This document shows, piece by piece, positions 3,001-29,786 of a DNA stretch of 64,000 bases (the stretch's first letter is position 1; every line of letters starts with the position of its first letter). This stretch comes from Paracidobacterium acidisoli (lineage in GTDB: Bacteria > Acidobacteriota > Terriglobia > Terriglobales > Acidobacteriaceae), in contig NZ_QVQT02000003.1 in NCBI RefSeq assembly GCF_003428625.2, positions 751,017 through 815,016 on the forward strand, read 5' to 3'. Both the position numbers and the translations under genes were made by a program. The notes under the pieces were generated by a model. That model saw only the letters and a program-made list of their open reading frames with translations. It did no database searches and was not told the DNA's origin.

Positions 3001-3075
3001 TCCGGCTCGTTCGGAGTGATCACCAATACCTTCCCTGCTCGCGATATCCAGCTGGCGATGAAGTTCTATTGGTAA
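1..3075 (+). CDS. TonB-dependent receptor, Oar/carboxypeptidase-regulatory type (5' truncated)
   Basis: The reading frame is open from base 1, so the gene starts upstream of the window and the signal peptide, carboxypeptidase-like domain and most of the plug are missing. What remains starts within the plug, then shows the typical sequence NSFTAQYGWSTGNVINVVTKSG, an FHGSAFEFYRNSALD stretch, and a long beta-barrel rich in aromatic and Asn/Gly residues. It ends in a C-terminal Phe-Tyr-Trp, a usual outer-membrane-barrel terminus. Such receptors import oligosaccharides or other large substrates across the outer membrane using TonB energy. The next genes are a GH31 glycosidase and a TPR protein on the same strand, so a carbohydrate ligand is likely. 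The family call is secure; the substrate is inference. Confidence 0.93.
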   Translation, partial: ATLNSSVNNTTQSQVLNGGGASTNGNADQDISFLSFGGGFFGTSAFLLDGIWDTAGDWGGVVYVPSVDSVEEFKVQNNSFTAQYGWSTGNVINVVTKSGTSKFHGSAFEFYRNSALDSNLYFANAQGLERPDFHRNQFGFSAGGPLYIPRFYKQREKTFVFGLYEHLYSSTPSVATNTVPTAGFLAGDFSAALGSQQGVDALGRPILTGQIYDPSSARLLTAGQVDPKTGLVARSTGYIRNPVPGNNLAAYTTLNPQAVRILSYYPHPTSNGLVNNFAASGTAPSDSNEYTIRIDHNFTQASRIYGRYSYKSEYKTGAPEYWGASDPAGPGNLRPNNRYQLVLGFNHVFTPTFMMNLTGGFEHWGEGSNNQSKGFHPSTLGLPGYLDQNSAEFPIIAVGGGNASIPAETALGPTGGAENTAYRPTGSIGADFNKIVGHHTLSFGFMGVESQNNFSSLYQTQLNFGGTFTDGPDPDAPSSNTGNGVAQALFGVIDGGNTGVAFNPAISKKYSGLYLQDDWAATSKLTLNIGVRYETQLAPTYRHNTASFFDPALPNPIGTAIHQTLPGAVVFTGSNHRGTYDTNWTNIAPRLGLSYSLLPKLAVRGGFGLFYPPSAYLGGASTSGFSTSTNVIPAAPGSRVPDPSVTISNPWPQGLRSVTGNTLGQLQDVGFSTASYWRSRKSSYVEQWMFGIQYGFTKNDVLDVTYVGNHGLHMLTGGLDASQLDPKYLPMGTTALNNPVSNPFYGQITSSGCNLGQPTVSQSQLLQPFPQFCGVTQNDAPAGFSNYNALQVNYNRRFSQGLNLLVSYTFSKFIDNVEGTNSWAYTSNAGPANNYNLAAERSVDSGDIPHSLVVNYIYELPVGRGKKVGSHFNRTTNAVLGGWQVSGITTAKSGIPLGITGSNINSYGGNPRPDVTGNVHLQHKTIQEWFNTNAFALAPYGTFGTAPRNFSDLRGPGYQNWDLSIMKNWNFTEDTRLQFRAEMYNAFNHANFYTPNTGLGSGSFGVITNTFPARDIQLAMKFYW

Positions 3076-3221: not shown

Positions 3222-5564
3222 TTGCAATTCTTTCATGTGTCTGCGAGGCTTCGCCGCGCGCTCGCCGAATCGATGATGTGGTTCCTTCTGCTGCCCATGC
3301 TTGCGGCTCCGTGCCTGGCACAAAGTGAGCTGACTTCCACTGCCGGCAAAACCGGAATCGTCATCGCAACCAAAACCGACACGTTACGTATCGAGGTGTG
3401 TGGCGCATCGATACTTCACATCATCGCGTCGCCGCATCCCGGCAAATCAGAAGCTCTCTCCCCGACTCCCTGGATCACAGGTGGATGTGATCCTGCTCCG
3501 TACCATCTGAGCGAAACCGGCACGTCCAGGATTCTCACCACCGCAAATATCCGTCTCGAGATATTTCCTGATGGCTCGATGACATTCAGCGACAGTCGCG
3601 GAAATACTCTCTTAAAAGAGCTGGGTGGACGCACCTATGACCAGGTTCCCTCAGAAAGCGCGGGTATCTATCACACGCGGTCCTTCTTTCAGCCGTCAGA
3701 CGATGAGGCCATATACGGTCTGGGCCAGCATCAGTCCGGAATGTTCAATTACAGAGGATCATCCGTCTACTTATCGCAGACAAATACAGATGTAGCGGTT
3801 CCGCTCTTTCTCTCCACAAAGGGCTATGGCGTGCTTTGGAATACGGCCTCTTCCACCCTTTTCGACAATCGCACGCCACATATGCTCATTATGGACACGA
3901 CCGCAGAGCGCTCGATTGATTATTACTTCATCGCGGGACCTGAGCCTGATCAGATCATCCACGGATACCGTACCCTCACCGGATCTGCGCCCATGTTCGG
4001 CAAATGGGCCTATGGACTTTTTCAGTCGAAAGACCGGTATAAATCCCAGGACGAGTTACTCCATGTGGCGCAGGAGTATCGCAGCAAAGGCCTGCCGCTG
4101 GATACATTGGTTCAGGACTGGCATTGGTGGACCACCCAGGGCTCCGCCGAGTTCAATGCGGAGTATCCCGACCCGAAAGGGATGTTCGCAGCCCTGCATG
4201 CGCTGCATCTGCACGTCATGCTTTCTATATGGCCCACATTTGATTCTGCAGCTCCGATCGACGCCGAGATGCGAGCGAAGACCTGGATGCTCGGTAATAC
4301 CGATGCCTACGACGCGACCAATCCTGAAGCGCAGAATCTCTACTGGAAGCGGCTTGCAGGGCCGTTGCTACGTGAGGGCGTGGACGCCTTCTGGCTCGAT
4401 GCCACCGAGCCGGAACTATCGGCAACGGAGCATGGCATTCCGCCAGGAGGTGATCTTTACCTCGGACGGAGCGCTCTCTTCTCGAATATCTATCCCTATT
4501 CGGATTCGGCCGGCATCTACCGGAACTGGCGGGCGACGACCCAGGAAAAGCGCGCCTTCATCCTCACCCGTTCCGGCTTTTCAGGCCAGCAGCACAACGC
4601 TGCTGCTACCTGGTCGGGCGACGTTTACAGCACCTTCTGGTCGCTCGAGCGGCAGATTCCAGCCGGGCTTAACTTCTCCATCTCCGGCATACCGTACTGG
4701 ACGACAGACATTGGTGGATACGGATATCCGAGCTTTAAATCAACCGAAGATCCAGCCTTTCGCGAGCTGGTGACGCGGTGGTTTGAGTTCGCCACATTCT
4801 GCCCGTTGTTCCGCATGCATGGCCATCGGGAGAATAACCAGAATGAGCTGTGGAGTTTCGGCGATGACTCCAGGATTCTCGCTGTCTACGATCGCCTGCG
4901 CTATCGCATGCTTCCTTATATCTATTCATTGGCCTGGAAGGTCACGAGTGAAGACTACACTCTCATGCGCCCGCTCGTGATGGACTGGCGTTCCGATCGG
5001 GCTACATGGGAGATTGGGGACGAATATATGTTTGGCCCTTCACTGCTGGTGGCGCCGGTAACAAAATCTCACGCAACCAGCCGTTCTCTCTATCTGCCTT
5101 CGTCGCCACGCTGGTACGACTTCTGGACCGGAGCAGAGGTGGCCGCCGGCCATCATGTTGCGGATGCTCCGCTGGACCGTATTCCGCTGTACGTGCCAGC
5201 CGGTACAATTTTACCGCTCGGTCCGGAAGTTCAATACGCCGCGCAGGATCAAGACGCGCCGCTTGAGCTGCGTATCTATCCCGGCGCCAACGGGGATTTC
5301 AGGTTGTACGAGGATGCCGGAGACGGTTACGGATATGAGCATGGAGAGCGTGCGATCATCCCGCTTCGCTGGGACGACGCGCACTTTACTTTGACGATTG
5401 GCGCGCGCGAAGGAGCCTATCCGGGGATGGCGAAGTCGCGGCAGTTTCGCATCATTCTTGTCCGCCCCGGCCATGGCACGGGAGAAGAAGTGACCACAAC
5501 CGCAGAGCAGGAGGTTTCCTACTCGGGTGCACCTGTCGAGGTTCACATAAGACGACGCAATTAA
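3222..5564 (+). CDS. Exported GH31 family glycosidase (alpha-glucosidase/alpha-xylosidase type)
   Basis: A 780-residue protein. The start is TTG at 3222, chosen because GGAG lies 7 nt upstream; a hydrophobic signal segment ends near CLAQ at residues 31-34. GH31 landmarks are in order: the N-terminal beta-sandwich with YGLGQHQ (about 165), the barrel with WHWW (300-303), the nucleophile Asp393 in FWLDATEP, LTRSGFSGQQ (449-457), and the probable acid/base Asp467 in WSGDVYS, followed by C-terminal beta domains. GH31 enzymes hydrolyse or transfer alpha-linked glucose, xylose or galactose residues. The gene lies 146 bp after the TBDR and 69 bp before the TPR gene, so it probably processes what that receptor imports. 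The family is clear; the exact specificity cannot be read from sequence alone. Confidence 0.93.
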   Translation: MQFFHVSARLRRALAESMMWFLLLPMLAAPCLAQSELTSTAGKTGIVIATKTDTLRIEVCGASILHIIASPHPGKSEALSPTPWITGGCDPAPYHLSETGTSRILTTANIRLEIFPDGSMTFSDSRGNTLLKELGGRTYDQVPSESAGIYHTRSFFQPSDDEAIYGLGQHQSGMFNYRGSSVYLSQTNTDVAVPLFLSTKGYGVLWNTASSTLFDNRTPHMLIMDTTAERSIDYYFIAGPEPDQIIHGYRTLTGSAPMFGKWAYGLFQSKDRYKSQDELLHVAQEYRSKGLPLDTLVQDWHWWTTQGSAEFNAEYPDPKGMFAALHALHLHVMLSIWPTFDSAAPIDAEMRAKTWMLGNTDAYDATNPEAQNLYWKRLAGPLLREGVDAFWLDATEPELSATEHGIPPGGDLYLGRSALFSNIYPYSDSAGIYRNWRATTQEKRAFILTRSGFSGQQHNAAATWSGDVYSTFWSLERQIPAGLNFSISGIPYWTTDIGGYGYPSFKSTEDPAFRELVTRWFEFATFCPLFRMHGHRENNQNELWSFGDDSRILAVYDRLRYRMLPYIYSLAWKVTSEDYTLMRPLVMDWRSDRATWEIGDEYMFGPSLLVAPVTKSHATSRSLYLPSSPRWYDFWTGAEVAAGHHVADAPLDRIPLYVPAGTILPLGPEVQYAAQDQDAPLELRIYPGANGDFRLYEDAGDGYGYEHGERAIIPLRWDDAHFTLTIGAREGAYPGMAKSRQFRIILVRPGHGTGEEVTTTAEQEVSYSGAPVEVHIRRRN

Positions 5565-7803: not shown

Positions 7804-9132
7804 TTAAAGTGCGACCCGGGAAAGACGATGACAGGCCACCACATCGAAGGTATTAAGAGACGAAGCCATGGTATTTACGCGCAGTAATATTTCAAACTGG
7901 GCATTGCGATCGTAAACATTCAGGCCATGCTCATGAAGCACCTGAACAATGGAATCCACGTCGGTGGCCAGCCTGTAGGCCGCTTCGGTAGCGACAGAGT
8001 TGGAGCCCGCCAGAATCAGAATGTGTCCTGTCTGGTTCTCATTCGCCAGTAACGCGATAATCGCAAACGCCTCGCCGGTTCCCCACCCGGGCGTGGTGGG
8101 AACATAGACTGGTGCTTCTCCATGCTCGGCATGCCGGTTGTAAATAATCTCTCCATGCCGCGCCGGATCGTACTGGAAGTAGAAATCGAGCTGGTCCTGG
8201 AAGAGGGACACCCAGGGATTCGATAAAGGGCTGCCGAGCAGTATAAAGTTGTCCTCGGTCTTAAAGTCCTGGGATTGAAGAACTCTGGCGCGATACATTT
8301 CGATTGGGCTCGAAGGGAGTAAACCCCTGACTCCGAGGGCGAATCTGGCATCAATAACAGGAACGTTGTTGCCTTTAAAAAGACGTTCGATGACTCTGGA
8401 GGGATGATCAAGCAGTTGTTGCTCCGGTACATAATGATGACCTGCATAGTCCGAGAGCGAAATTTCATTCCCGACTACTCCTTCAAGAGCAACAATATCG
8501 GGATCACTCAATACGATCTTTAGTTCTCCTCGACGCGGCAGCATGACCGACCACGGCAGACGGTCCGTTTTGGCTGACTGCATCCGGTAGTGATAAACAA
8601 CGGGCAAAAGCCCCAGCACTGTCAAAGCCGCCGCAATCAGCAAAAAGCGGCGCCAGACGGAGCGCTTCGGAGCCGGCTGACTCAGGGCTTCTGCAGGCTG
8701 GGATGGTGAAGGCGGATCGATCACCTCCGGAGCCCTTGATTCGGCAGCCTGCTCGATCAGCTCAATGATGTATGACCCGGGCTGCAGTTCAAGACGGATG
8801 CCTGTTTCGACTCCGTCATAGAAGCGCTTCAGCCGTCTTCGGACATCGGTTGCCGTAACGCGTACGATCGCATCCTCGCCCGTATCGTAGGAGGGATCAC
8901 GACCGAACAACTGCATACCGATCATCCGTTCTTTCAATTCATCAAGCTCACCTGCCAGTGTCTTGTCCACGAGATGTTGCAGAAACTCACAACTCCTGCG
9001 GCTTCTGTTAAACGCCCGGCTTGCGAAGATCTGATAGACGTGATGCCGAACCTCATTCTCGCGAGAAACGAGCGATTCGGTCCTGAGGGCAAATGGCTCC
9101 TCATCCAACTGACCCGATTGCATCGATTTCAC
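7804..9132 (-). CDS. Membrane-anchored regulator, N-terminal DNA-binding-like domain plus periplasmic sensor (paralogue 1)
   Basis: A 442-residue protein (GTG at 9132; ATG at 9123 is an alternative, neither with a clear ribosome site). Residues about 25-125 form a domain seen widely in acidobacteria: SCEFLQHLVDKTLAGELDELKE, then IGMQLFGRDPSYD, AIVRVTATDVRRRL, and LQPGSYIIEL, which resembles the winged-helix end of CadC/OmpR-type proteins. A single membrane segment (FLLIAAALTVLGLLPVV, about 170) leads to a roughly 250-residue presumed periplasmic domain with ILLGSPLSNPW and LILAGSNSVATEAA. The same architecture recurs in the gene at 40177. Divergent transcription from the receptor at 9313 suggests control of that locus in response to a periplasmic signal. 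DNA binding is inferred from resemblance, not shown. Confidence 0.7.
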   Translation of the reverse strand: MKSMQSGQLDEEPFALRTESLVSRENEVRHHVYQIFASRAFNRSRRSCEFLQHLVDKTLAGELDELKERMIGMQLFGRDPSYDTGEDAIVRVTATDVRRRLKRFYDGVETGIRLELQPGSYIIELIEQAAESRAPEVIDPPSPSQPAEALSQPAPKRSVWRRFLLIAAALTVLGLLPVVYHYRMQSAKTDRLPWSVMLPRRGELKIVLSDPDIVALEGVVGNEISLSDYAGHHYVPEQQLLDHPSRVIERLFKGNNVPVIDARFALGVRGLLPSSPIEMYRARVLQSQDFKTEDNFILLGSPLSNPWVSLFQDQLDFYFQYDPARHGEIIYNRHAEHGEAPVYVPTTPGWGTGEAFAIIALLANENQTGHILILAGSNSVATEAAYRLATDVDSIVQVLHEHGLNVYDRNAQFEILLRVNTMASSLNTFDVVACHRLSRVAL

Positions 9133-9176
9133 ATGTTGAACATACCAAACCCGTCATTCGGGACTGTTAAAAAACG

Positions 9177-9239
9177 CCGTTAGGGAATAAACGACGTATT
9201 TGCAATAACATACTAAACCGTTAGGAATCCCGTCCTAAC
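9177..9239. promoter_or_regulatory. GTTAGGA repeats: probable operator region between regulator 1 and receptor
   Basis: The 180-bp divergent intergenic region holds a direct repeat CCGTTAGGGA (9177-9186) and CCGTTAGGAA (9218-9227), 41 bp apart, about four helical turns. A perfect inverted repeat GTTAGGA (9220-9226) and TCCTAAC (9233-9239) has a 6-bp spacer. AACCGTT at 9216-9222 is shared with intergenic regions of the second regulator locus. The spacing and the divergent regulator suggest binding sites; this is inference. Confidence 0.45.
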
Positions 9240-9312
9240 TACCGGACCGACCGGACTACGTGTGTAGATAAAGGAGGAGTGCAGACGTTCCTGGCGATAT
9301 CGGGAGAGTACA

Positions 9313-12300
9313 GTGAAGCGAAGCGGGCAGAGGTTTCGGAACATCAGTTGGGTACTGATTTGCTTAATAGGCACGTGTTTGCACGTGTATGCGCAATCGG
9401 ACACCAGTTCGATTGCGGGTTTCGTCAAAGACCAGTCAGGTGCAGTCATTCCTCACGCGCAGGTCACGGTGACATCTGAGGCGACCCAGGAGAGCCACAC
9501 GGTCACGACAGATAACAAGGGATACTACTCGCTTTCGAGTCTGCCGGCCGGCTTCTATACGGTCGCTGTTCGGATGCAGGGGTTCAAACTCTTTGAGAGC
9601 GTCCACGACAAACTGGACGCGGTGTCAACGTTATCCATCAATGCAACGTTAACAATTGGAGTGTCAAATGAATCTGTAAAGGTGATCTCGAGCGCCGATT
9701 TAATTCAGACCGATTCCGGAGCGGTTCAGCACCAGATCACCGAAGAGCAGATTCAGCACCAGGAGCTCAATGGCAGAAATCCTGTGTACATGGCTGAGCT
9801 GTTGCCTGGTGTGATCACGGGAGCCACGCTTGGCGATTTCAATTTCAGCGTAAGCAAGCCGGGCTTCTCGATCAATGGCGCGCGATCGACAGATACGACT
9901 GTAACGATTGACGGTGCGCCAGCGGTGCGCACTCGCGCAAACACATATGTGATTGGCGTGCCGAACGTGGACTCAACCGAAGAAATGCAGGTGCTCACGG
10001 CGGCATACGCAGCCGAATACGGCGGGGCTGGAGGCGGCCAGGTCCGCATGGTCAGCAAAAGTGGAACGACCGACTTCCATGGAACGGCATATGAATATTT
10101 ACGAAATTCGGCACTGAATGCGAATACCTGGTCGCGCAACGAAAGTCCGTCAACACGGTTTGCCTCGCCCTTCCGTTACAACGACTTCGGTTTTGCCGCA
10201 GGGGGGCCGGTGTGGATTCCCGGTCTGCCGCCGGTCCTGCGGAGAAAGCTCTTCTGGTTCGTTGCCCAGGACTGGATACGGTACCGGTATACCGATACCG
10301 TATTTCAAACCGTACCCACAGCCCTTATGCGCGCAGGCAATTTCAGCGAATTGCTGGGTCCCAACCCGTTTTACAGCTCCCCGGTGATCCTTCGCAATCC
10401 ATTTGACTGCACAACCACCAATGGGAAAAAGACCTGCGCTCCGCTTCCGGGAAATACAATCCCGCAAAATCTGCTGAGCTCCAATGGAACGGCTCTCCTG
10501 AACGCTTATCCTGCGCCAATTCCCGGTCTGCTGGTCAACGGAAATCAGAACTGGGAAGCCGTTGCTCCTCATCCGATCAACCAGCGAAAGGGCTCTTACA
10601 ATTTCGATTTTGTTTTGAACGACAGGCACCGCATCTCATTCCGGCGAACAGACCTTTCCTACAACGAGTACTCGGCACTTGACCAGGGATCGGGACTGAC
10701 AGGGAAGTACAAGACGTGGCCGAACCAGACGAACACGCTTGCCTGGAGCTGGACGATCACCCCAACAATCGTTAATGAAATGAACGGAACACTCAGCATC
10801 GACAGGGTGGCGAATCCAGTCAATGATGCACTGCCGGGGTTTCATCGAACACAGCTTGGAATTAACTATAACTATATAGTTCCCGGTGGTAAGGACGTCG
10901 ATAAGATCCCCAGTCTCAGTCTGTCAAAACCTTTCTACAGCCTGAGTGGCGGGCCATATCCATCCCACTCCGGTGGTCCGATTTATACATTCAGCGACAG
11001 CCTGTCGAAAGCAGCCGGGAATCATATGCTGAAGTTCGGCTTCCAGTTTGATTACCGGGGCGAGAATGATGATGATCAGATCAACATCACAACTGTTCCT
11101 GGAGGCAGCAATAATCAGAACGGAACATTTACCCTTACTGACTCCTATGCCAATGGTAGTGGTTTGGGTATCGCCAACCTGGCCCTGGGATTGGCTGACA
11201 GTTATACCGAAATAGGACCGCGGGCTTACACGATCTGGCGCGGAGCCATGTATGAATGGTTCGCTCAGGATTCGTGGCAGATCACCTCAAGATTGCACCT
11301 CGATTATGGATTGCGCGATACGCTTGTTTTCCCATTTCATGCGCTTTGGGGTAACTCCGTCTATTTCGATCCCGAGCTGTATGATCCGGCGCAGGCAATC
11401 AGCGTCAATCCGGCCACAGGTCTGGTTGCCCTGGGCACTGGCAATCAATATAACGGCATGGTCATTCCCGGGCTCTCCGGCTTCCCCAGCGGCGCTGCGA
11501 AGCATGGAGTCTATCAGGCCAACTTTCCCAGTACCTATGCCGCACTGTTCGACAAAAGTTTGCCCCGCGGCCTGATGGATGCCCAGAACGCCTTTCAGCC
11601 GCGGCTTGGCATTGCATATCAGTTCAAAGATAAGACGGTGATTCGCGCCGGTGGCGGCCGGTTCCTTACCCGAATGGGATTACTGGACAATATCTTCCCA
11701 GGAGGGAACTCTCCATTCCAGCCTTTTGTCACTGTGACGAATATTTCGGTGGACAATCCGGGAGCCGGTTTGACTTCTGTCACGACACCCACGCTGACTG
11801 TGACAACGTTAGACCGCCATATGAAACAGCCGGAGGCATGGAACTGGAATGTTACGGTGGAGAAACAGCTTCCCGGGCATTCAGTGCTGTCCGTCGCTTA
11901 CGTTGGCCGCCGCGGACTGCATCTTTGGTATTCAGAGGATGCCAATCAGGTACCTGCCGGAACCACGTATGCAAATCCTCATGTCAACATAGCGGCTCTG
12001 GTTCCCTATAAAGGGTTTTCTCAGATACTGACGGAATTGAGCCGCGCCAGTTCCAAATACAATTCGCTGCAGGTCTTCTGGAGCCGCCGCTTTACCAATG
12101 GTCTGGACTTTTCGGCCGCTTATACACTGGCCAAAAGCATGGACAACAGCTCCAGTTACAGCGACATTGTCCCGGATACTTACAACACAAGTAATCTTTG
12201 GGGTCCCTCCACTTTTGATGTTCGTCATGCGTTTGTTGCTACGTCTACGTATGACCTGCCGTTCTTGAGAGAGCAGCAGCATCTTGCCGGAAAGATATTC

Positions 12301-12789
12301 GGAGGCTGGCAGCTCAGCGGCACGGCTCAATATTTGAGCGGTGCACCTGGAAGCGTCTACAGCACGAACACCGATTATGCGGGGACGGGGGAACCGGGCC
12401 TGCCTCAATTCTGGGTGATGCACGGGCGGGCAACGTATCCGCGTCAATTTTCCCGCGGCGCCTCGAGCTCGACCACTTACTTCAATACGACTACATCAAA
12501 CGGCGATCCGCTGTTTACCGCACCCCCGCAGGGGACATTCAACCTGCAGCACGGGATTCGAGATTCGATCTACGGTCCCGGCTTCCAGGACTGGAATGCG
12601 GGACTATTTAAGAAGTTTGCCATCGACGAGCGGAATGTCTTTGAATTCCGAGCCGAAGCTTACGACGTTTTCAACCATCCCAACTGGTCCAGCCCTAACT
12701 TCACTCCCGGGACTTCTACCTTCGGCAAAGTTACCGGCAAAACTGATCTTTCGCGACAGCTCCAGTTATCGCTGCGTTACTCGTTCTAA
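9313..12789 (+). CDS. TonB-dependent receptor with N-terminal carboxypeptidase-regulatory-like domain
   Basis: A complete 1158-residue receptor. The GTG start at 9313 follows GGGAGAG at 9302-9308. A signal peptide ending at VYAQ precedes a carboxypeptidase-regulatory-like beta-sandwich (SIAGFVKDQSGAVIPHAQVTV, then YYSLSSLPAGFYTV), the plug (ITEEQIQHQELNGRNPVYMAELLPG; GGGQVRMVSKSGTTDFHG) and a large barrel ending in LRYSF. This is the Oar-like receptor type expanded in acidobacteria. It is followed by phosphoesterase, multicopper oxidase and mannosidase genes on the same strand and preceded by a divergent anchored regulator, which suggests a regulated uptake locus. The ligand is unknown. Confidence in the family is high. 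Confidence 0.95.
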   Translation: MKRSGQRFRNISWVLICLIGTCLHVYAQSDTSSIAGFVKDQSGAVIPHAQVTVTSEATQESHTVTTDNKGYYSLSSLPAGFYTVAVRMQGFKLFESVHDKLDAVSTLSINATLTIGVSNESVKVISSADLIQTDSGAVQHQITEEQIQHQELNGRNPVYMAELLPGVITGATLGDFNFSVSKPGFSINGARSTDTTVTIDGAPAVRTRANTYVIGVPNVDSTEEMQVLTAAYAAEYGGAGGGQVRMVSKSGTTDFHGTAYEYLRNSALNANTWSRNESPSTRFASPFRYNDFGFAAGGPVWIPGLPPVLRRKLFWFVAQDWIRYRYTDTVFQTVPTALMRAGNFSELLGPNPFYSSPVILRNPFDCTTTNGKKTCAPLPGNTIPQNLLSSNGTALLNAYPAPIPGLLVNGNQNWEAVAPHPINQRKGSYNFDFVLNDRHRISFRRTDLSYNEYSALDQGSGLTGKYKTWPNQTNTLAWSWTITPTIVNEMNGTLSIDRVANPVNDALPGFHRTQLGINYNYIVPGGKDVDKIPSLSLSKPFYSLSGGPYPSHSGGPIYTFSDSLSKAAGNHMLKFGFQFDYRGENDDDQINITTVPGGSNNQNGTFTLTDSYANGSGLGIANLALGLADSYTEIGPRAYTIWRGAMYEWFAQDSWQITSRLHLDYGLRDTLVFPFHALWGNSVYFDPELYDPAQAISVNPATGLVALGTGNQYNGMVIPGLSGFPSGAAKHGVYQANFPSTYAALFDKSLPRGLMDAQNAFQPRLGIAYQFKDKTVIRAGGGRFLTRMGLLDNIFPGGNSPFQPFVTVTNISVDNPGAGLTSVTTPTLTVTTLDRHMKQPEAWNWNVTVEKQLPGHSVLSVAYVGRRGLHLWYSEDANQVPAGTTYANPHVNIAALVPYKGFSQILTELSRASSKYNSLQVFWSRRFTNGLDFSAAYTLAKSMDNSSSYSDIVPDTYNTSNLWGPSTFDVRHAFVATSTYDLPFLREQQHLAGKIFGGWQLSGTAQYLSGAPGSVYSTNTDYAGTGEPGLPQFWVMHGRATYPRQFSRGASSSTTYFNTTTSNGDPLFTAPPQGTFNLQHGIRDSIYGPGFQDWNAGLFKKFAIDERNVFEFRAEAYDVFNHPNWSSPNFTPGTSTFGKVTGKTDLSRQLQLSLRYSF

Positions 12790-12828
12790 GGAAACAGGGA
12801 GACGGCGTTCCTTCCGTCTTCCTGTTCC
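12790..12828 (+). terminator. Stem-loop after receptor gene, probable attenuator
   Basis: Bases 12790-12805 pair with 12814-12828 (about 14 bp with one bulged A and one G-T pair) around an 8-nt loop, directly after the receptor stop codon. It is followed by the pyrimidine-rich TTCTTC rather than a clean T-run. Because the next gene starts only about 30 bp further on, the hairpin may reduce read-through or protect the receptor mRNA end. Confidence 0.5.
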
Positions 12829-12859
12829 TTCTTCACGTCCGATCCGGAGGAATATAAAC

Positions 12860-14263
12860 TTGTTTCGATCGTTGTTGCGCTATGCTGTCCTCCTGCTGTT
12901 CTTTGCGGTTCCCCTGAGCCCTCTGCAGTCAGCTGCCGCCCAGGCGCCGCCGAAGCCTCCGTTGTTGCCTTTGTCCGAATCAATTCTGGCGCGTATTCCG
13001 GCTGATTACCGTGCCGAGGCAAAGGCGCAGATCAGGCAGACGGAAGAGAATCAGCTACAGGCCGAGAACATGCCGGACGGGGATCTCGTCGCAACTGTGC
13101 TTCATCTTCTTGGCGACATTCCCTCGGAATCGACTTTCCTGCTCGACCGGCTGGAAAAAGAACCCTCTGCGGCGCTTCGCATTGACCTCATCCAGGCGCT
13201 GGAGAAGCATTGGCTTGGCAGCAGCCAGGACCTGCCGGCCCTCGAGAAGCATGCGTCGTCGGACCCTGATGTAACTGTCTCTGTTGCCGCCGTCAAAATG
13301 CTTAAAGAGGTTGGGATTAACTCCCTGAACTCACTGCTGAAGAGCAGGCTCGGAGTTGCGCTTGCCGCCGGCGATGTGCACAGTGCCGGCCTGGTGCTGG
13401 ACGAGCAGAAGCTGCTGCTGCAGGCACACTATGGCATCACTCTTCCATCATTCATGCGTATTCCGCCGCCACAGTTTTCCGTGGTCCCGGCGGGCAGGGC
13501 AATTCGCGTGCTGGCGTTTGGTGATTTTGGAACCGGTTCGGCCGCGCAGAAACAGACCGCAGCAGCGATGGTGGCGTATCAAAAGATCCATCCCTTCGAT
13601 TTCGGTTTAACTCTTGGCGACAACTTTTACCCGCGAGGTATGAAAAGCCCCGACGACCCCCGCTGGCAGACGCAGTGGGAACAGCTTTATGGCGTGATGC
13701 ACATCCCGTTCTATGCCGTACTGGGCAATCACGACTGGAGCGGCGCCGACAGTCCGGCGGCAGAGATTCTCTACTCGGCCAGGAGCCAGAGCTGGCACAT
13801 GCCTTCTCCGTATTACACGTTCACTGCCGGTTCCGTACAGTTTTTTGCCTTCGATACGCCGGCGATGGACGAAGCGGAGTTGAAATGGCTCGATGAGGAA
13901 CTGATCAGAAGCACTGCGCGGTGGAAGGTGGTCTTTGGCCACTACCATATTTATTCGGCGACGCGCGGCGACAATAAAGAGCTTATCGCGCGGCTTCTGC
14001 CCATTCTTAAAAAGGATCATGTCGATGTATATCTGGACGGCCACGACCATAACCTCCAGGAACTGAAGCCCGAGGGAGGCGTCCATTTCTTTGTCAGCGG
14101 CGGAGGCGGAGCCGGTCTCTACGAGATGAATCCATACGACCGCTCCGTTTTCCGGCAAAAGATCAACGGCTTCACAGTTCTTGAGGCCGACGACAAGACC
14201 CTTGCGATCAGCTTTGTAGGCACGGATGGAAGTGAAATCTATCGTCGAACCCTCACAAAATAG
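12860..14263 (+). CDS. Exported purple-acid-phosphatase-like metallophosphoesterase
   Basis: The start is TTG at 12860, preceded by GGAGG and followed by a clear signal peptide (LLRYAVLLLFFAVPLSPLQSAAAQ); longer upstream frames run inside the receptor gene and are not used. The product is about 467 residues. After a helical N-terminal region of about 200 residues come the calcineurin-type metal motifs: FGDFGTGS, LGDNFYPRG, GNHDW, FGHYHIYS and GHDHNLQ, the order found in tartrate-resistant/purple acid phosphatases. Such enzymes release phosphate from esters outside the cytoplasm. The gene overlaps the next one by 38 bp, so the two are almost certainly co-transcribed. The natural substrate is not evident. 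Confidence 0.88.
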   Translation: MFRSLLRYAVLLLFFAVPLSPLQSAAAQAPPKPPLLPLSESILARIPADYRAEAKAQIRQTEENQLQAENMPDGDLVATVLHLLGDIPSESTFLLDRLEKEPSAALRIDLIQALEKHWLGSSQDLPALEKHASSDPDVTVSVAAVKMLKEVGINSLNSLLKSRLGVALAAGDVHSAGLVLDEQKLLLQAHYGITLPSFMRIPPPQFSVVPAGRAIRVLAFGDFGTGSAAQKQTAAAMVAYQKIHPFDFGLTLGDNFYPRGMKSPDDPRWQTQWEQLYGVMHIPFYAVLGNHDWSGADSPAAEILYSARSQSWHMPSPYYTFTAGSVQFFAFDTPAMDEAELKWLDEELIRSTARWKVVFGHYHIYSATRGDNKELIARLLPILKKDHVDVYLDGHDHNLQELKPEGGVHFFVSGGGGAGLYEMNPYDRSVFRQKINGFTVLEADDKTLAISFVGTDGSEIYRRTLTK

Positions 14264-15686
14264 CGGGCTCCTGCATGGCGGATCGCTGACGCGCCGCGGC
14301 TTTCTCTCGGGAGCCGCGGCAGCGCTCACGGAACTTGCTGCGAACCCGGCATGGGCAGCGCTGCCAGGACACAGCATGCCGGCAGATGTAACTCTGCGGA
14401 TCGGTCCGGTGGCTGTCGATGTTGCTCCCGGAAAGACGGTCCACACTACGGGCTACAACGGCGGCGCGCCAGGACCGCCGATTCGTCTGCGCGAAGGTAT
14501 TCCTGTCACCGTGGATCTCTTCAATGACACCGACATTCCGGAGTATGTGCATTGGCATGGCTTTCCTTTCGCCGCAGCCATCGATGGCACGCAGGACGAG
14601 AAGAGTTTGTCTGTGCCGCCGCATGGGCATCTCCGCTATCGCATGACGCCGCGTCCCGCCGGCTCGCGCTGGGTGCATTCACATGTAATGACGATGGACG
14701 ATCTCACCGTTGGTATGTACAGCGGACAGTTTGGATTCGCGTATGTCGAACCTGAAGCCGATCCCGGCCGTTACGACCAGGAGATTTTTCTTGCGACCCA
14801 TGAGTGGGAGCCCTTCTTCATCGATATGGACGACGATGACAACCCATCTGCCGTGGAAGAGTTTGGAGAAACCGACTGGGGCCCCGGGATGGTCGAGATC
14901 GGCTATCGCATCGCCTCGATCAACGGCAAAGCCCTTGGTCACGGCGAACCTATTCGCGTCAAAGAAGGCCAGCGCGTTTTGTTCCACATCCTGAATGCGA
15001 GCGCGACGGAAAATATTCAGCTTGCTCTTCCCGGCCACGAATTTCTTGTCACCGCGCTGGATGGAAATCCCGTTCCGCGGCCTTGCAGGGTTCCTTCGCT
15101 CGATTTGGGAGCTGCCGAACGCATCGATGCAATCGTTGAGATGAGCCATCCGGGTGTGTGGGTTCTCGGCTCTACCGACAACGACACACGCGGTGCAGGT
15201 CTGGGGATACTGGTAGAGTATGCGGGTCACAGCGGCGTCGAGATAAACGCGCGCTCTGCCATTGCGCCGTGGGATTATGCACAGTTCGGTTTACCGCAGC
15301 CACAGCAGCCCGCCGATGTAACGCTGCCGATGGTCATTACGCGCATCCCAGCGGGGGAGAATGGTTTTGAGCGATGGGAGATCAACGGCAGGAGCTATCG
15401 CGCGCAGGACCCTCCCGTGGTGTTGCGCAAAGACATGCGCTATCGCTTCGCATTCCACAACACCAGCTCCGATGCGCATCCGCTGCATCTGCATCGCAGT
15501 TCATTTGAACTGACGCGCATTGACGGCAGAGCCACGAGCGGCCTGTTGAAGGATGTTGTGCTCATCGGCGCCGGGCAGCGAATGGAAGTCGATTTTACGC
15601 CCAGGCAGGATGGCCTGATGCTCTTTCATTGCCACAATCAATTCCACATGGAACGTGGATTTCAGATGCTGTTTGACGTGAGGTAA
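14226..15686 (+). CDS. Tat-exported multicopper oxidase, laccase-like
   Basis: A 486-residue protein starting at ATG 14226, inside the preceding gene. The N-terminus has a twin-arginine signal (LTRRGFLSGAAAAL). All four copper clusters are visible: HWH at 109-111, HSH at 151-153, HPLHLH near 418-423 and H468-C469-H470 with H474. The residue at the type 1 axial position, five after H474, is Phe479 rather than the Met of CueO-like enzymes; a non-coordinating axial residue is linked to high redox potential in laccases. These enzymes oxidise phenols or metal ions with reduction of O2 to water. Overlap with the phosphatase gene suggests translational coupling. The substrate is unknown. Confidence 0.92.
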   Translation: MEVKSIVEPSQNSGLLHGGSLTRRGFLSGAAAALTELAANPAWAALPGHSMPADVTLRIGPVAVDVAPGKTVHTTGYNGGAPGPPIRLREGIPVTVDLFNDTDIPEYVHWHGFPFAAAIDGTQDEKSLSVPPHGHLRYRMTPRPAGSRWVHSHVMTMDDLTVGMYSGQFGFAYVEPEADPGRYDQEIFLATHEWEPFFIDMDDDDNPSAVEEFGETDWGPGMVEIGYRIASINGKALGHGEPIRVKEGQRVLFHILNASATENIQLALPGHEFLVTALDGNPVPRPCRVPSLDLGAAERIDAIVEMSHPGVWVLGSTDNDTRGAGLGILVEYAGHSGVEINARSAIAPWDYAQFGLPQPQQPADVTLPMVITRIPAGENGFERWEINGRSYRAQDPPVVLRKDMRYRFAFHNTSSDAHPLHLHRSSFELTRIDGRATSGLLKDVVLIGAGQRMEVDFTPRQDGLMLFHCHNQFHMERGFQMLFDVR

Positions 15687-15793: not shown

Positions 15794-18700
15794 ATGATAG
15801 TTGCTTTCCGTGCCGTTCGCGCTGTTATCCGGCGCAGTCTGCGATTCGTTACAACCATAGCGGCGATGCTCGCCCTGGTAACTGCCGTGGACGGCCAGAC
15901 AATGGCCACACCGGACATCACAAAGACTCCCACGCTCTTCGTCGTTCCTTACGCGCATCTGGACACGCAATGGAGATGGGAGTTTCCGCAGACCATCAAT
16001 GAATTTCTGCTCAAGACGATGCGGGTGAACTTCGAGTATATGGATAAGTACCCGCACTATGTCTTTAACTGGACCGGTGCAAACCGCTATCGTCTGATGA
16101 AGGAGTACTTTCCTGCCGATTACGCGCGAATCAAGGGATACGTCGCGCGTGGACAATGGTTTCCCGCAGGCTCTTCCGTGGAAGAGGGAGACGTGAATCT
16201 GCCCGGCGCTGAAGGAATTTTTCGCCAGATACTGTACGGGAATATGTATTTCCGCCATGAGTTCGGCAAGGCAAGTAACGAATTCATGCTGCCCGACAGT
16301 TTTGGATTTCCTGCTTCGTTGCCCACGATTCTTGCTCATGCCGGGCTCAAAGGATTCTCGACACAGAAGCTTGGTGGGCGCTGGCCTGCGGGACCGGAAG
16401 CGGGAGGGCCCGGCTCGCCCGAGCAGACACCGGATGGCGTACCTTTCAATGTCGGGGTGTGGACGGGGCCGGACGGCGAAAGTGTGATAGCAGCGCTGCA
16501 TCCTGGAGCGTATGGCAGCAGCGTCTATACCGATCTGAGCGAAGCGCCTGGTACGTCTATGGAGCAGACGCTCCTGAGCAGCGCGCAAAAACCACCGCTC
16601 ACGCCGGAACAGGCCAGCGCACTTCGCGGCCTTGTTGCTCTCGATACAGATTGGGTGAAGCGCATCGATCTCGATGGCAAAGCATCGGGCGTATTTGCCG
16701 ATTACCGCTATGTGGGCACGGGAGATACGGGAGGAGCGGCGCGCGAGTCCACTGTCAAACTGCTCGAAGCCATCGTGACGAAGAGCGACACCATACTCCC
16801 ATCGCTGCCAAAGCTGAAAGGCGAGCCGTCATTTCCTGCGCAGTCGGTAACCGTGCGCGCAGGAGAAGGCCCGGTGCACGTGATTGAATCCTCTGCCGAT
16901 CAAATGTTCAACTCCATCACGCCGGAGATGGCCGCGCATATGCCGCGCTACGAAGGCGACCTGGAACTGACCGACCACTCCGCCGGTTCGCTCACGTCGC
17001 AGGCCTATCACAAACGCTGGATTATCAGGGATGAGAATCTTGCCGATGCTGCGGAGAAGGCTTCGATCGCCGCGCAATGGCTTGGCGCGCGCGCCTATCC
17101 GCAGCAGCGACTGAATGACGCATGGATGCTCGCGCTCGCCGGACATTTTCATGACACGGGCGCGGGAACATCGACGCCGCGCGCCTATCAATACGCATGG
17201 AATGACGATGTGATCGCGGCCAATCAGTTTGCTGCCGTGCTTACCAATGCAAGTGCCGTTATTGCTTCGGGCCTCGATACGCGCACGCATGGTGTGCCGG
17301 TGGTTGTCTACAATCCGCTCAATATCGCTCGACAGGATATGGTCGAAGCTGCCGTTGTCTTTCCCGGCGGCGCTTCCAGGGCTGTACGGGTCTATGGCCC
17401 CGACGGGCAGGAGACGCCGGCGCAGTGGGAAGACGGCAAGGTAGTCTTTCTGGCGCGCATGCCATCTGTCGGCTATGCTGTCTTCGACGTACGTCCGGCT
17501 GCACGACCAATGGCGAACGACATGCTGCAGGTCTCCGGCCGTTCACTCGAAAATCAGCGTTATCGAGTATTGCTTAATGGGGACGGCGACGTATCGAGTA
17601 TTTATGACAAGAGGCTCGGCAGGGAGCTGCTCTCCGCGCCTCTCAGGCTGGCAATCTCCACCGATGTGCCTCGTAATTACCCGGCCTGGAACATGGATTT
17701 CGCGCAGGAGCAGGCCGCCCCGCGTGCTTTTGTCAGCGGACCCGCAAAAATTCGTATCAGCGAGAATGGTCCGGCGCGTGTCTCGCTCGAAGTGACACGG
17801 CAAACCGAAGGTTCCCGGTTTGTGCAAACCGTTAGCCTTGCTGCGGGCGATGCCGGCAACCGCGTCGATCTCCATTATGCAATCGACTGGAAGACCGGAG
17901 GCTCCAATCTCAAAGCGGCCTTTTCGCTGAGCGCTTCGAATCCGAAAGCGACTTACAGCTGGGACATTGGCACCGTCGAGCGGGGGAATGCGCAGCCGCG
18001 GCAGTATGAGGTGGGCTCGCATCGCTGGATCGATCTGACCGACAAGAGTGGCAGCTATGGCGTAACGTTGCTGACCGATGTGAAGAACGGCTCCGATAAA
18101 CGCAGCGATCAGATGATTCGCGTGACGCTGTTGCGTTCTCCCGGAGCGAAGCCGACGGCGGATGGACACCCGGGCAGCTTCAGCGATCAGACAACGCAGG
18201 ACTGGGGTCATCACGAGATCGAACTCGGCCTTGCCGGTCATTCGGGCGACTGGCGTCAGGAGCAAACAGTGTGGCAGGCATACCGTGTGAATGATCCGCT
18301 GATCTCGTTTACCACGGAAAAGCATACGGGCAGGCTCGGCAGGAGCTTCTCACTCGTGCACGTCAGCAATCCTGCTATCCGCGTGCTTGCGCTCAAGAAG
18401 GCTGAGGAGAGCGACGAGATCATTCTCCGCATGGTGGAGCTGAACGGCAAATCCGCGCAGAACACGCGTGTATCATTTGCCGCGCCGATTACATCGGCGC
18501 GTGAGGTCAACGCGCAGGAGGAACCGATTGGGCCGGCGAAAATGAATCACGGCGACCTGATTGCGTCCTTCACACAATATCAGCCACGCACCTTTGCTCT
18601 GCGCCTCGCACCGCAGCAGGCTCTGCTCGCTCGCCCTCATGCGCAGGGCGTCGCATTGCACTACGACCTTGCCGTAGCCAGCAACGACGATACGAAGACC

Positions 18701-19369
18701 GGCGGCGGCGGCATCGACGGCAAAGGAAATGCGATTCCCGCAGAGATGCTTCCGACTCAGATCCATTTTGGTGCAATAAAATTCGAGCTTGCCACGTCCA
18801 AAACCGATGTCCCGAATGCTGTCACGGCCAGAGGCCAAACGCTTGCCCTGCCTGCCGGCCGGTTCAATCGCATTTATCTGCTGGCCGCAGCGTCGTCTGC
18901 GGAGGATCAGAAGGCGCTCTTTCGCGTTGGAGATCGAGCCACAGAGCTGAACATTCAATCGTGGACAGGCTGGATCGGCCAGTGGGACACGCGCATCTGG
19001 AAAAATGCTTCGGACCGTGACTGGGCTGTTTCCGCCAATCACTCCGTGTGGCCTCCGCTCAACACATCGAACGAGTCCGGACCAGCATGGCGCTATCCGG
19101 ACGACTACGTCGGATTGAAGCCCGGATATGTCAAGCAGGCTGCACTGGGTTGGTATGCGTCTCACCACCATACGGCGGAGGGACTCAACGAGCCGTACCA
19201 GTATTCCTATCTCTTCGTATACTCACTGGACCTGCCCAGTGGTGTTTGTACGCTTACTCTGCCGAACAACGACAAGATCCGCATTTTGTCAGCCTCCGTT
19301 GTCAACGACAATCCGTCATTGATCCCGGCGGCACCGCTGTTTGACACGCTGGGACGAGCGGAGCCCTGA
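15794..19369 (+). CDS. Exported GH38 alpha-mannosidase
   Basis: About 1191 residues. ATG 15794 is preferred over TTG 15773 because GGAGAG lies 7 nt upstream. A signal peptide (LRFVTTIAAMLALVTAVDGQ) is followed by the GH38 zinc motif PYAHLDTQWRW (His55, Asp57), and by the probable nucleophile Asp168 in LPDSFGFPASLP. A zinc-ligand His is likely in HFHDTGAG, and a large beta-rich C-terminal region follows, as usual for GH38 (about 900-1200 residues). GH38 enzymes cleave alpha-mannosyl linkages of N-glycans or mannans. The gene is 107 bp behind the multicopper oxidase on the same strand, so it may belong to the same uptake locus. Family assignment is firm; the linkage preference is not readable. 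Confidence 0.92.
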   Translation: MIVAFRAVRAVIRRSLRFVTTIAAMLALVTAVDGQTMATPDITKTPTLFVVPYAHLDTQWRWEFPQTINEFLLKTMRVNFEYMDKYPHYVFNWTGANRYRLMKEYFPADYARIKGYVARGQWFPAGSSVEEGDVNLPGAEGIFRQILYGNMYFRHEFGKASNEFMLPDSFGFPASLPTILAHAGLKGFSTQKLGGRWPAGPEAGGPGSPEQTPDGVPFNVGVWTGPDGESVIAALHPGAYGSSVYTDLSEAPGTSMEQTLLSSAQKPPLTPEQASALRGLVALDTDWVKRIDLDGKASGVFADYRYVGTGDTGGAARESTVKLLEAIVTKSDTILPSLPKLKGEPSFPAQSVTVRAGEGPVHVIESSADQMFNSITPEMAAHMPRYEGDLELTDHSAGSLTSQAYHKRWIIRDENLADAAEKASIAAQWLGARAYPQQRLNDAWMLALAGHFHDTGAGTSTPRAYQYAWNDDVIAANQFAAVLTNASAVIASGLDTRTHGVPVVVYNPLNIARQDMVEAAVVFPGGASRAVRVYGPDGQETPAQWEDGKVVFLARMPSVGYAVFDVRPAARPMANDMLQVSGRSLENQRYRVLLNGDGDVSSIYDKRLGRELLSAPLRLAISTDVPRNYPAWNMDFAQEQAAPRAFVSGPAKIRISENGPARVSLEVTRQTEGSRFVQTVSLAAGDAGNRVDLHYAIDWKTGGSNLKAAFSLSASNPKATYSWDIGTVERGNAQPRQYEVGSHRWIDLTDKSGSYGVTLLTDVKNGSDKRSDQMIRVTLLRSPGAKPTADGHPGSFSDQTTQDWGHHEIELGLAGHSGDWRQEQTVWQAYRVNDPLISFTTEKHTGRLGRSFSLVHVSNPAIRVLALKKAEESDEIILRMVELNGKSAQNTRVSFAAPITSAREVNAQEEPIGPAKMNHGDLIASFTQYQPRTFALRLAPQQALLARPHAQGVALHYDLAVASNDDTKTGGGGIDGKGNAIPAEMLPTQIHFGAIKFELATSKTDVPNAVTARGQTLALPAGRFNRIYLLAAASSAEDQKALFRVGDRATELNIQSWTGWIGQWDTRIWKNASDRDWAVSANHSVWPPLNTSNESGPAWRYPDDYVGLKPGYVKQAALGWYASHHHTAEGLNEPYQYSYLFVYSLDLPSGVCTLTLPNNDKIRILSASVVNDNPSLIPAAPLFDTLGRAEP

Positions 19370-25529: not shown

Positions 25530-26702
25530 TTACTCGATGACCTGAAATTCTTTGAGGCGTTCTTCATTGATCGTCAGGCCGAGGCCGGGCACGTCTTCGG
25601 GGAGATCGATGAAGCCGTCTTTCGGTCGGGGCTCGCCGTCGAAGATGTACCAGAAAAGCTCGTTGCCCACTTCCACATCCACGGGCGGGAAGAACTCGGC
25701 CATCGGCGAGTTAATGCTCGCCATCACAATGTGGTAGTTGTGCATCTGGCCGGCGTGCGGGATCACCGGAACGGAAAAGGCCTCAGCCATGGCGGAGATT
25801 TTTCTTGCCTGGCTGATGCCGCCGACGCGATTGGTGTCGAACTGAATGTAGTCGAGAGCGTGGGTTTCGAGCAGGTTCCGGAAGCCGTAGATGGTGAACT
25901 CGTGCTCTCCTCCGGCGATCGGGATGCGGCCGGCGGCCTTCAGCTCGGCATATCCGCAGGTATCGTCGGGAATGACCGGTTCTTCGAGCCAGCGCAGATG
26001 GAAGGGCTCGAGCAGCGGAAGCATGCGCTTCGCATAGTCGAGCGTCCAGCCCATGTAGGCATCGGCCATCACGTCGATCTCATTCCCCACGGTGTTGCGG
26101 ACCGTGCGCACCAGATCGACATTGCGCTGCATGCCCTCTGCGCCATCGACGGGGCCCCATCCGAAGCGCAGCTTCATGGCGCGGTAGCCCTGATCTTTAT
26201 AGGCTTTGGCTTCGGAGGCGAGCTGTTCGAGACCGACCGAGTAGAGACGGCTCGCATAGACTGGAATGCGCGGTTTGGTTCTGCCGCCGAGAAGACGATA
26301 GACCGGCTGCTTCGCGGCTTTGCCGAGAAGATCCCACAGCGCGATGTCCACGGCGCTGATAGCGGTCATGCCGATGCCTTTGCGGCCAAAGGCCATGGTG
26401 TGACGGTACATGTGCTGCCAGAGAAATTCGACGTCCCATGGATTTTGCCCGATGAGCAGCGGCTTCAGATAATGGTCGATGAGCTGTTTGGTCACCACGG
26501 GAGCGAGTGCCGCATTGCCGATCCCGACCAGGCCGTCGTCGGAGACGACTTCGACGACCAGCCAGCCATGAAAGGTAAAGGTCTTCATGGTGGTCTTCGT
26601 CAGCGACAGCAGATCCATGGGATTGGTGCAGAAATGCGGCGGCAGCGGCGTGGTTTCCCCCGACCATTGAACGACGCGTGTGCGAACCTCTCGTATCTTC
26701 AT
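25530..26702 (-). CDS. Enolase-superfamily sugar-acid dehydratase, L-rhamnonate dehydratase-like
   Basis: A 390-residue member of the mandelate racemase/muconate lactonising group. Metal ligands are Asp in DVMADAYMGW, Glu in WLEEPV and Glu in AGGEHE. The catalytic His is in VIPHAGQMHNYH. The stretch MKLRFGWGPVDGAEG matches the pattern around KMPTHWGPHDGDAG of E. coli RhmD as I recall it, which favours the rhamnonate-dehydratase subgroup over mandelate racemase or galactonate dehydratase. It converts an aldonic acid to a 2-keto-3-deoxy acid. Its start overlaps the stop of the MFS transporter gene by ATGA (26699-26702). Related substrates such as L-fuconate, L-lyxonate or L-mannonate remain possible. 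Confidence 0.85.
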   Translation of the reverse strand: MKIREVRTRVVQWSGETTPLPPHFCTNPMDLLSLTKTTMKTFTFHGWLVVEVVSDDGLVGIGNAALAPVVTKQLIDHYLKPLLIGQNPWDVEFLWQHMYRHTMAFGRKGIGMTAISAVDIALWDLLGKAAKQPVYRLLGGRTKPRIPVYASRLYSVGLEQLASEAKAYKDQGYRAMKLRFGWGPVDGAEGMQRNVDLVRTVRNTVGNEIDVMADAYMGWTLDYAKRMLPLLEPFHLRWLEEPVIPDDTCGYAELKAAGRIPIAGGEHEFTIYGFRNLLETHALDYIQFDTNRVGGISQARKISAMAEAFSVPVIPHAGQMHNYHIVMASINSPMAEFFPPVDVEVGNELFWYIFDGEPRPKDGFIDLPEDVPGLGLTINEERLKEFQVIE

Positions 26703-29772: not shown

Positions 29773-29786
29773 AATCTCTCCGTCAT

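Follow-up and report, generated by a model that had tools for sequence, protein, structure and literature searches.

Recurrent acidobacterial modules of a membrane-anchored regulator, a TonB-dependent receptor and hydrolases, probably serving glycan utilisation

Which substrates are taken up by gene clusters that combine a TonB-dependent receptor, hydrolases and a regulator of their own? Acidobacteria are abundant in soil, and their substrates are hard to assign. The question is raised here by a stretch of 64,000 nucleotides from Paracidobacterium acidisoli, in the following called the window, which corresponds to positions 751017-815016 of contig C9 in a genome of 5.0 Mb (G000:C9; G000 denotes the own genome and L-numbers denote fetched loci). 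By its gene content and its relatives (Bryocella, Terracidiphilus, Granulicella), the genome would fall within the Acidobacteriaceae. A sequence-only reading of the window had described two paralogous modules of anchored regulator, TonB receptor and secreted phosphoesterase and had proposed an outer-membrane system for phosphate esters. The recurrent module is real and the architecture had been read correctly, but the generalisation to phosphate esters does not hold. We consider, with a probability of roughly 70%, that the modules are loci resembling the polysaccharide utilisation loci (PULs) of Bacteroidetes and the loci for carbohydrate utilisation containing TonB-dependent transporters (CUT) of Xanthomonas, each equipped with its own one-component sensor, the ligand of which is probably derived from a glycan.

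Architecture of the two regulators

The modules in question are built around two genes. Gene models are from simple gene calling, and the bounds of regulator 1 were taken from the open reading frame (ORF).

7804..9132, minus strand: regulator 1 (P0001), subfamily II; winged-helix-like domain at about residues 25-127, membrane helix at about 157-189, predicted periplasmic domain at about 192-442
40177..41499, minus strand: regulator 2 (P0002), subfamily I; winged-helix-like domain, membrane helix from about residue 158 (440-residue numbering), predicted periplasmic domain

The two proteins are 39% identical over 142 residues (BLASTP, E 5e-24), and this match is confined to the N-terminal part; no pairwise BLASTP similarity was detected between the periplasmic parts (remaining fragments E >= 0.08). 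A second common domain past the membrane helix became visible in an alignment of 12 paralogues including both window regulators. Moreover, a hidden Markov model (HMM) of this C domain, built from the paralogues, matched 45 ORFs in the fetched loci, of which 44 also carry the N domain. AlphaFold models of the two regulators (mean predicted local distance difference test scores of 81 and 82) both consist of a helical N domain with a terminal beta hairpin, a single long helix and a C domain of the alpha/beta type. The domain order, a direct observation, and the related periplasmic part had been claimed from the sequence, and both are borne out by the alignment, the HMM and the models; rather than being unrelated in structure, which the same reading had named as evidence against itself, the two regulators have the same C-domain fold. 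Each has one hydrophobic peak (2.15 and 2.7; next highest 1.22 and 1.31), and in both a single membrane helix is predicted to be followed by a periplasmic domain.

Neither regulator matched a Pfam family (E 0.01) or an NCBIfam family (E 0.1), no convincing sequence relatives were found in the PDB, and Trans_reg_C (PF00486), which has 17 matches in the genome, matches at neither locus. Foldseek alone gave weak results for the models (best E 2.4e-3). In VIA-align, for which a Z of 8 is advised as the safe level, the C domains of the two regulators matched the periplasmic domain of BcsB (6yg8_D) with Z 11.5 and 11.3 over 163 and 167 residues, the cell-wall anchor of a Methanococcus S-layer protein (Z 11.1/8.4) and the N-terminal domains of the glycoside hydrolase (GH) families GH67 (10.4/8.9), GH115 (10.0/8.4) and GH84 (9.7/8.7), with identities of 8-20% to these fold matches. 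The top matches of the N domains were the DNA-binding domains of SaeR (Z 6.9, 84 residues), ArlR (5.7, 82) and CadC (5.5, 89, for regulator 1), each below Z 8, and other winged helices such as ScpB also score Z 5.5. A glycan ligand for the C domain is plausible, and the structural comparison does not demonstrate one.

Receptors and enzyme cargo

A profile search with the N domain identified 14 members in the own genome, two of which (L008, L009) carry, as judged by eye, beta-propeller-like C-termini in place of the common C domain. The N domain was found in 18 of 31 genomes (one per genus of the family, own included). Of 247 genomes sampled across the phylum, 25 contain the C domain (20 from the same family, 1 from elsewhere in the class and 4 from elsewhere in the phylum), and the N domain alone was matched in Rhizobium and Roseomonas (Alphaproteobacteria), Desulfosarcina and Gemmatimonadaceae. 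Subfamily I (25 rows) is set apart, in a phylogeny of 105 two-domain regulators, by a branch that has 99% support in the Shimodaira-Hasegawa-like approximate likelihood ratio test (SH-aLRT), and the two window regulators fall in different subfamilies (regulator 1 in II, regulator 2 in I). Four of the other-genome two-domain regulators belong to named records (L025 from Bryocella elongata and L026 from Terracidiphilus gabretensis, both of the xylan-type clade described below, as well as L041 and L043); the others come from the same family. The C domain of L017 is too divergent for either subfamily HMM, and L013 was counted as N-only since its stretch was split between L018 and L019.

All 14 paralogues of the own genome lie within 8.5 kb of a PF25183-type receptor, 11 within 4 kb and 9 within 2.5 kb, as compared to 21, 13 and 10% of random positions (P 3e-10, 6e-8 and 1.5e-6). 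The genome has at least 65 such receptors in 5.0 Mb, and because these are the 65 scored among 104 candidates, the random expectation may be too low. Among the 17 OmpR-type (PF00486) regulators of the genome, 4, 5 and 8 have a receptor within 2.5, 4 and 8.5 kb, respectively. The association also extends to other genomes, for which receptors were taken from the fetched stretches. Among the first 48 N-domain proteins, a receptor directly adjoins 25/33 of those that have a C domain and 3/15 of those that lack one (P 4e-4). A receptor lies within 5 kb of 83/95 two-domain regulators versus 7/17 N-only proteins (P 1e-4), both counts including 60 added stretches that were picked by C-domain score alone, highest first, and thus leaning to subfamily II. 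Control receptors were deliberately picked away from regulators, so that their lack of a neighbouring N domain follows from the choice and carries no weight. The gene association is an observation in its own right, and the pairing of a one-component membrane regulator with a TonB receptor and secreted enzymes, as it had been read from the window, does recur (11/14 own paralogues, P 6e-8).

The enzyme genes accompanying these pairs are diverse. In the own genome, GH loci encode GH10, GH43 and GH28-like proteins (L015), GH92, GH95 and GDSL proteins (L016), a GH28-like protein (L018) and GH31 (window position 3273). Further cargo comprises PF01663 (L019), PAP2 (L021), a phosphatidylinositol-specific phospholipase C (PI-PLC) together with GH92 (L022), CehA/McbA metallohydrolases (L023, L024) and, at L017, a BNR protein as well as a phospholipase C located about 3 kb past the regulator. 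The latter stretch (L017:3366-9118) holds the phospholipase C (PF04185 and PF05506), a major facilitator superfamily transporter and, by eye only, genes resembling those for phosphonate breakdown. In other genomes, the cargo includes GH3, GH31, GH43, amylase, 3-keto-disaccharide hydrolase, tetratricopeptide repeat (TPR) proteins, PF04185, PI-PLC and glycerophosphodiester phosphodiesterase (GDPD), as well as sulfatases, rhamnosidase- or lyase-like proteins, NAGLU, HGSNAT and 2H-phosphodiesterase. Follow-up scans of some modules without a seed match also uncovered GDPD and 2H-phosphodiesterase, but sulfatases and glycosidases too; for several first-downstream genes of other-genome modules, no family was found in the scan.

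Does a phosphate-ester theme unite this cargo? Across eight genomes, 9 of 144 PF04185, PF00149 or PF01663 genes lie within 8 kb of a two-domain regulator, with 2.2 expected (P 4e-4). Most of this excess comes from the own genome, which had prompted the idea (5/21, 0.75 expected), and the seven remaining genomes contribute 4/123 (1.4 expected, P 0.05). Among own receptors, one of the three phosphoesterase families lies within 5 kb of 2/14 linked and 3/51 unlinked ones (P 0.29). By comparison, 4 of 11 GH92 genes are near two-domain regulators (about 0.17 expected, P 1.5e-5), this family having been chosen after it was noticed.

The subfamilies, split by two C-domain HMMs, were compared in other genomes with one count per receptor; the 12/95 regulators for which no receptor lies within 5 kb were excluded and a receptor shared by two regulators (L114) was counted once. 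A phosphoesterase-type seed match was obtained for 0/18 modules of subfamily I, 19/64 of subfamily II and 4/40 control receptors (II versus I, P 0.009; II versus controls, P 0.03), and a GH match for 12/18, 19/64 and 5/40 (P 7e-5 for I and 0.06 for II, each versus controls). CehA/McbA proteins were included in the phosphoesterase type because we take them to have a PHP-like fold, their activity on phosphate not being known here; when these seeds are omitted, subfamily II retains 15/64, subfamily I 0/18 and the controls 3/40 (P 0.03 and 0.06). Pfam, considered among the best 25 families per protein, identified one GDPD in 30 control proteins, and weaker phosphoesterases could be hidden there. 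A general phosphoesterase theme was rejected for subfamily I and kept only in part for subfamily II, so that of the proposed outer-membrane system for phosphate esters a share of subfamily II remains, while glycoside hydrolases are common in both.

It was also found that regulator phylogeny predicts the type of enzyme. Clades tend to match their cargo (GH43/GH10/GH3, GH31, PI-PLC/GH92, CehA/McbA, a sister pair with NAGLU formed by L139 and L148, and sulfatase), although the CehA/McbA clade also holds GH92, PF01663 and PI-PLC in places. When 63 labelled rows (30 phosphoesterase-type, 33 GH only) are placed on the tree, 8 cargo changes suffice, whereas shuffled labels require 21.2 on average and at least 15, none of 1000 shuffles being as low. 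The result persists without the own genome (6 changes versus 17.8, minimum 12) and without rows labelled by CehA/McbA alone (8 versus 18.0, minimum 12). It also persists when two near-copies are dropped as well (8 versus 16.9, minimum 9), and in the latter two cases 1000 shuffles were never as low. In a few of the labelled modules (L130, L149) the receptor is more than 5 kb away, and near-copies (L121/L123, L150/L152, L153/L155) inflate the clustering. Some combinations recur in detail: PI-PLC (PF16670 or a homologue) and GH92 accompany regulator and receptor in the own genome (L022), in Acidobacteriaceae RYN_15 (L041) and in three genomes of another genus (L121, L123, L126), which suggests that GPI (glycosylphosphatidylinositol)-like glycans or mannoproteins serve as a food source. 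Loci in which the regulator adjoins NAGLU, HGSNAT or NagX-like genes (L139, L148) or sulfatases (L150, L156, L161, L162) are reminiscent of glycosaminoglycan (GAG) breakdown.

Candidate control sites and the modules of the window

In the clade carrying GH43/GH10/GH3 (xylan-type), a family of 10-mers is present upstream of the receptor in 6/6 loci from six genomes, and six shuffles reach at most 4. Allowing one mismatch, CTGACNGTCAG occurs upstream of the receptor in 6/6 loci of this clade, in 1/85 other distinct linked regions and in 0/47 controls, a clade-specific conserved site that is directly observed. By eye, the motif extends into a second half, GACNGTC being repeated after about 10 bp; tandem-binding winged helices bind such repeated half-sites. 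In six whole genomes, a 23-base pattern matches without mismatch only at the cognate receptor, once each in three genomes of the clade (G017, G077 and G157), and with one mismatch at the cognate receptor of the own genome; G019 has no match. Four further one-mismatch matches lie elsewhere, and the reversed control pattern matches once.

The signal in subfamily II is weaker. With up to one mismatch, TTCACNGTGAA is found in 12/69 distinct upstream regions of this subfamily versus 1/47 controls (P 0.014), and an 11-bp tandem of CNGTNA in 7/91 versus 2/47 controls, both patterns having been chosen post hoc. The CehA/McbA set (4/6) and the NAGLU set (4/5) share motifs, and single shuffles reach the same number with fewer motifs; the upstream motifs of the PI-PLC clade are at shuffled level. 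Of the sets compared clade by clade, the xylan-type one alone is clearly distinct from its shuffles. An operator common to all modules was considered and rejected: dyads in 25 intergenic regions are about as frequent as in shuffled sequences (own 4 versus 4-5; all 6 versus 5), and palindromes overall are not enriched relative to controls.

The window contains two complete modules and part of a third one, with the following genes in addition to the two regulators:

9313..12789 (start 9313 or 9385), plus strand: Oar-type TonB-dependent receptor of module 1 (PF13620, PF07715, PF25183), divergent from regulator 1
12875..14263, plus strand: purple/tartrate-resistant acid phosphatase homologue (P0004; PF00149, PDB 1qhw), probably exported
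14226..15686, plus strand: multicopper oxidase (PF07731/PF07732/PF00394), weak Tat-signal match (TIGR01409, E 0.068)
15866..19369, plus strand: GH38 alpha-mannosidase (PF01074, PF07748, PF17677), next same-strand gene
37749..40199 (ORF open from 37713), plus strand: YncE-like beta-propeller fused to a PF04185 phosphoesterase (P0008), 3' end overlapping that of regulator 2
41814..43316, plus strand: possible zinc phospholipase C-like protein (P0006; weak evidence), divergent from regulator 2
43413..47093, plus strand: Oar-type TonB-dependent receptor of module 2 (PF13620, PF07715, PF25183)
1..3075, plus strand: receptor of module 3, the regulator lying just left of the window
L019:11945-13381 (G000:C9:748.8-750.3 kb), outside the window, left of its edge: regulator of module 3
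3273..5564, plus strand: GH31 glycoside hydrolase of module 3 (PF01055, PF21365)

Several statements of the sequence-only reading about these genes were confirmed, namely a TonB receptor near each regulator (both with PF13620, Plug and PF25183), a purple-acid-phosphatase-like enzyme in the first locus and, in the second, a YncE-phosphoesterase fusion composed of a propeller and PF04185. P0004 matches PDB 1qhw in two stretches (E 3.2e-30); its ORF is open from 12596, and a start at 12875 yields an N-terminus that by eye resembles a signal peptide. The first module runs on past the phosphatase with the multicopper oxidase and the GH38 alpha-mannosidase. Regulator 1 belongs to a clade of seven (100%), the classified members of which carry GH92, GH95, GH3 or pectate-lyase-like proteins. 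We would guess that the substrate of the first module is an alpha-mannoside bearing phosphate, because the module holds GH38 and a phosphatase and relatives of regulator 1 are linked to GH92.

For the second module, the evidence for a zinc phospholipase C-like protein is weak. An aligned stretch of P0006 retains the pattern H..D..H..H..E, which we take to be zinc ligands as in zinc phospholipase C, but the matches to phospholipase C chains are below significance (E 0.31-0.44) and neither PF00882 nor any other Pfam enzyme family was matched. P0006 may represent an undescribed branch. A homologue of P0008 (L053:14309-16966) adjoins another such regulator, one of subfamily II. Regulator 2 may be nearest to GH31-linked and cytochrome/TPR-linked regulators of subfamily I. 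For each of the window regulators, those close relatives that could be classified have glycoside hydrolase genes.

Five of the 14 paralogous regulators, each near a receptor, lie within 66 kb (G000:C9:726.8-792.5 kb), a cluster of feeding loci. At 25530-34117 of the window, a receptor (29787-33065) is divergent from a GntR/FCD regulator and is accompanied by a GH39 enzyme and an enolase-superfamily gene; this is a sugar locus under another regulatory type.

Weighing the readings and comparison with known systems

In the scheme that we favour, secreted or surface hydrolases, as most of the enzymes are presumed to be, would cut a polymer, often a glycan and sometimes one bearing phosphate or sulfate. 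The Oar-type receptor would bring the hydrolysis product into the periplasm, where the inner-membrane one-component regulator would bind it via its alpha/beta domain. The cytoplasmic winged helix would then switch the adjacent receptor and enzyme genes; DNA binding is predicted from the N domain, and activation appears to us a better guess than repression. Several observations weigh against this scheme. The match of the N domain to DNA-binding domains is below the safe Z, and the C-domain fold also serves structural and enzyme-accessory roles, a common fold not being a common function. No receptor lies within 5 kb on the fetched piece for 12 of the 95 other-genome two-domain regulators, and the search for an operator was negative in both modules of the window. 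The phospholipase-like and phosphoesterase enzymes beside regulator 2 mismatch its clade and are exceptional there. Furthermore, the cargo was labelled in part manually and in part with phmmer seeds drawn from these same modules, and 31/64 subfamily II modules matched no seed, which makes the counts relative rather than complete.

Four other explanations can be set against these data. That both gene types are simply frequent in large acidobacterial genomes and meet by chance draws on the abundance of receptors (at least 65 in 5.0 Mb), but can be almost entirely discounted in view of the comparison with random positions (P 6e-8), the association across genera, the correlation of clade and cargo and the conserved site. 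The original idea of phosphate-ester scavenging, with a sensor that would respond to phosphate esters or to a shortage of phosphate and would regulate both phosphoesterase and receptor, gains from the own genome, where 5/12 two-domain regulators adjoin a phosphoesterase-family gene (P0001, P0002, L013 with PF01663, L021 with PAP2, L022 with PI-PLC) and two more modules (L023, L024) carry CehA/McbA metallohydrolases, and from the 19/64 versus 4/40 in subfamily II (P 0.03). Yet subfamily I has none in 18, GH cargo is equally common in subfamily II, the excess drops to 15/64 versus 3/40 (P 0.06) without CehA/McbA, enrichment beyond the own genome is weak (P 0.05) and linked and unlinked own receptors do not differ significantly (P 0.29); we regard it as quite improbable.

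Alternatively, the C domain might sense the state of the envelope, or bind a wall polymer or the receptor itself, with no imported ligand. The fold match to the S-layer wall-anchoring domain and to BcsB, which forms a periplasmic semicircle, speaks for this, but we consider it unlikely because an enzyme cargo that differs from clade to clade speaks for a ligand varying with the substrate. A narrower variant, according to which part of subfamily II senses glycans with phosphodiesters or sulfate (GPI-like glycans, phosphomannan, GAG-like polymers), fits the PI-PLC and GH92 genes beside regulator and receptor in L022, L041, L121, L123 and L126 and, in other clades, NAGLU, HGSNAT and NagX-like genes (L139, L148) and sulfatases (L150, L156, L161, L162). 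It is a tentative idea with some appeal, although no substrate is known, the enzyme names rest on families and L121, L123 and L126 are of one genus and partly near-copies.

The reading as glycan-utilisation loci can be extended to a proposal that we hold with slightly more confidence than doubt. The regulators would be transmembrane one-component glycan sensors, mainly of one acidobacterial family, in which a domain resembling BcsB and the S-layer anchor was turned into a ligand-binding input and diversified with the hydrolases of the locus so that the sensor sequence predicts the substrate. The sites that they bind would differ between clades and be roughly palindromic or arranged in tandem, with TGACNGTCA for the xylan-type clade and TCACNGTGA-like sequences for subfamily II, and the sensors would be the acidobacterial counterpart of SusR and of hybrid two-component systems (HTCS). 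If the sensor clade predicts the cargo, uncharacterised receptor loci and enzymes (for instance the CehA/McbA, PI-PLC with GH92 and NAGLU with HGSNAT modules) gain a testable substrate hypothesis, and the specific regulator would offer an induction assay; a sensor fold would also be added to the one-component regulators. Searches of PMC on this subject gave no paper that, judged by title and abstract opening, describes a regulator family of this kind (subscription journals and preprints being outside this scope).

How do the modules relate to known systems? A TonB-type receptor with adjacent carbohydrate-active enzymes and a regulator, by which PULs and CUT loci are recognised, is found here as well. 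According to PMC3878776, the PULs of Bacteroidetes, with SusR-like, HTCS or extracytoplasmic function (ECF) sigma/anti-sigma regulators, likewise unite a TonB-type importer in the outer membrane with exported enzymes and a regulator of their own. The same paper reports SusR to be membrane-bound, to bind maltose on the periplasmic side and to have a C-terminal DNA-binding domain, whereas the winged-helix-like domain is N-terminal here, and the acidobacterial loci differ from PULs in having receptors of the PF25183 type and a BcsB-like sensor domain. No SusD-like family was detected among the neighbours scanned, which are a part of all neighbours. In the CUT loci of Xanthomonas (PMC1790865), genes for carbohydrate enzymes and a sugar-related regulator adjoin that of a TonB receptor, and each genome has very many receptors. 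The CUT loci also have an inner-membrane transporter, which was not looked for in the acidobacterial modules, and the sux locus uses the repressor SuxR, whereas the acidobacterial regulator is membrane-anchored. Regulators of the CadC/ToxR type (PMC5430869) have the order of DNA-binding domain, one membrane helix and periplasmic sensor that is also predicted here, but the regulators described here lack a PF00486 match and have a BcsB-like sensor fold. The flavodoxin-like domain of BcsB, the N-terminal domains of GH67, GH115 and GH84 and the archaeal S-layer wall anchor are alike in fold to the periplasmic domain (Z 8.4-11.5); in those proteins the fold belongs to a synthase, to an enzyme or to an anchor, and here it is the predicted input domain of a regulator. 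We read the loci as belonging to the known kind of substrate-specific TonB-receptor loci, with membrane sensors of their own; receptor type, regulator architecture and sensor fold set them apart from PULs and CUT loci.

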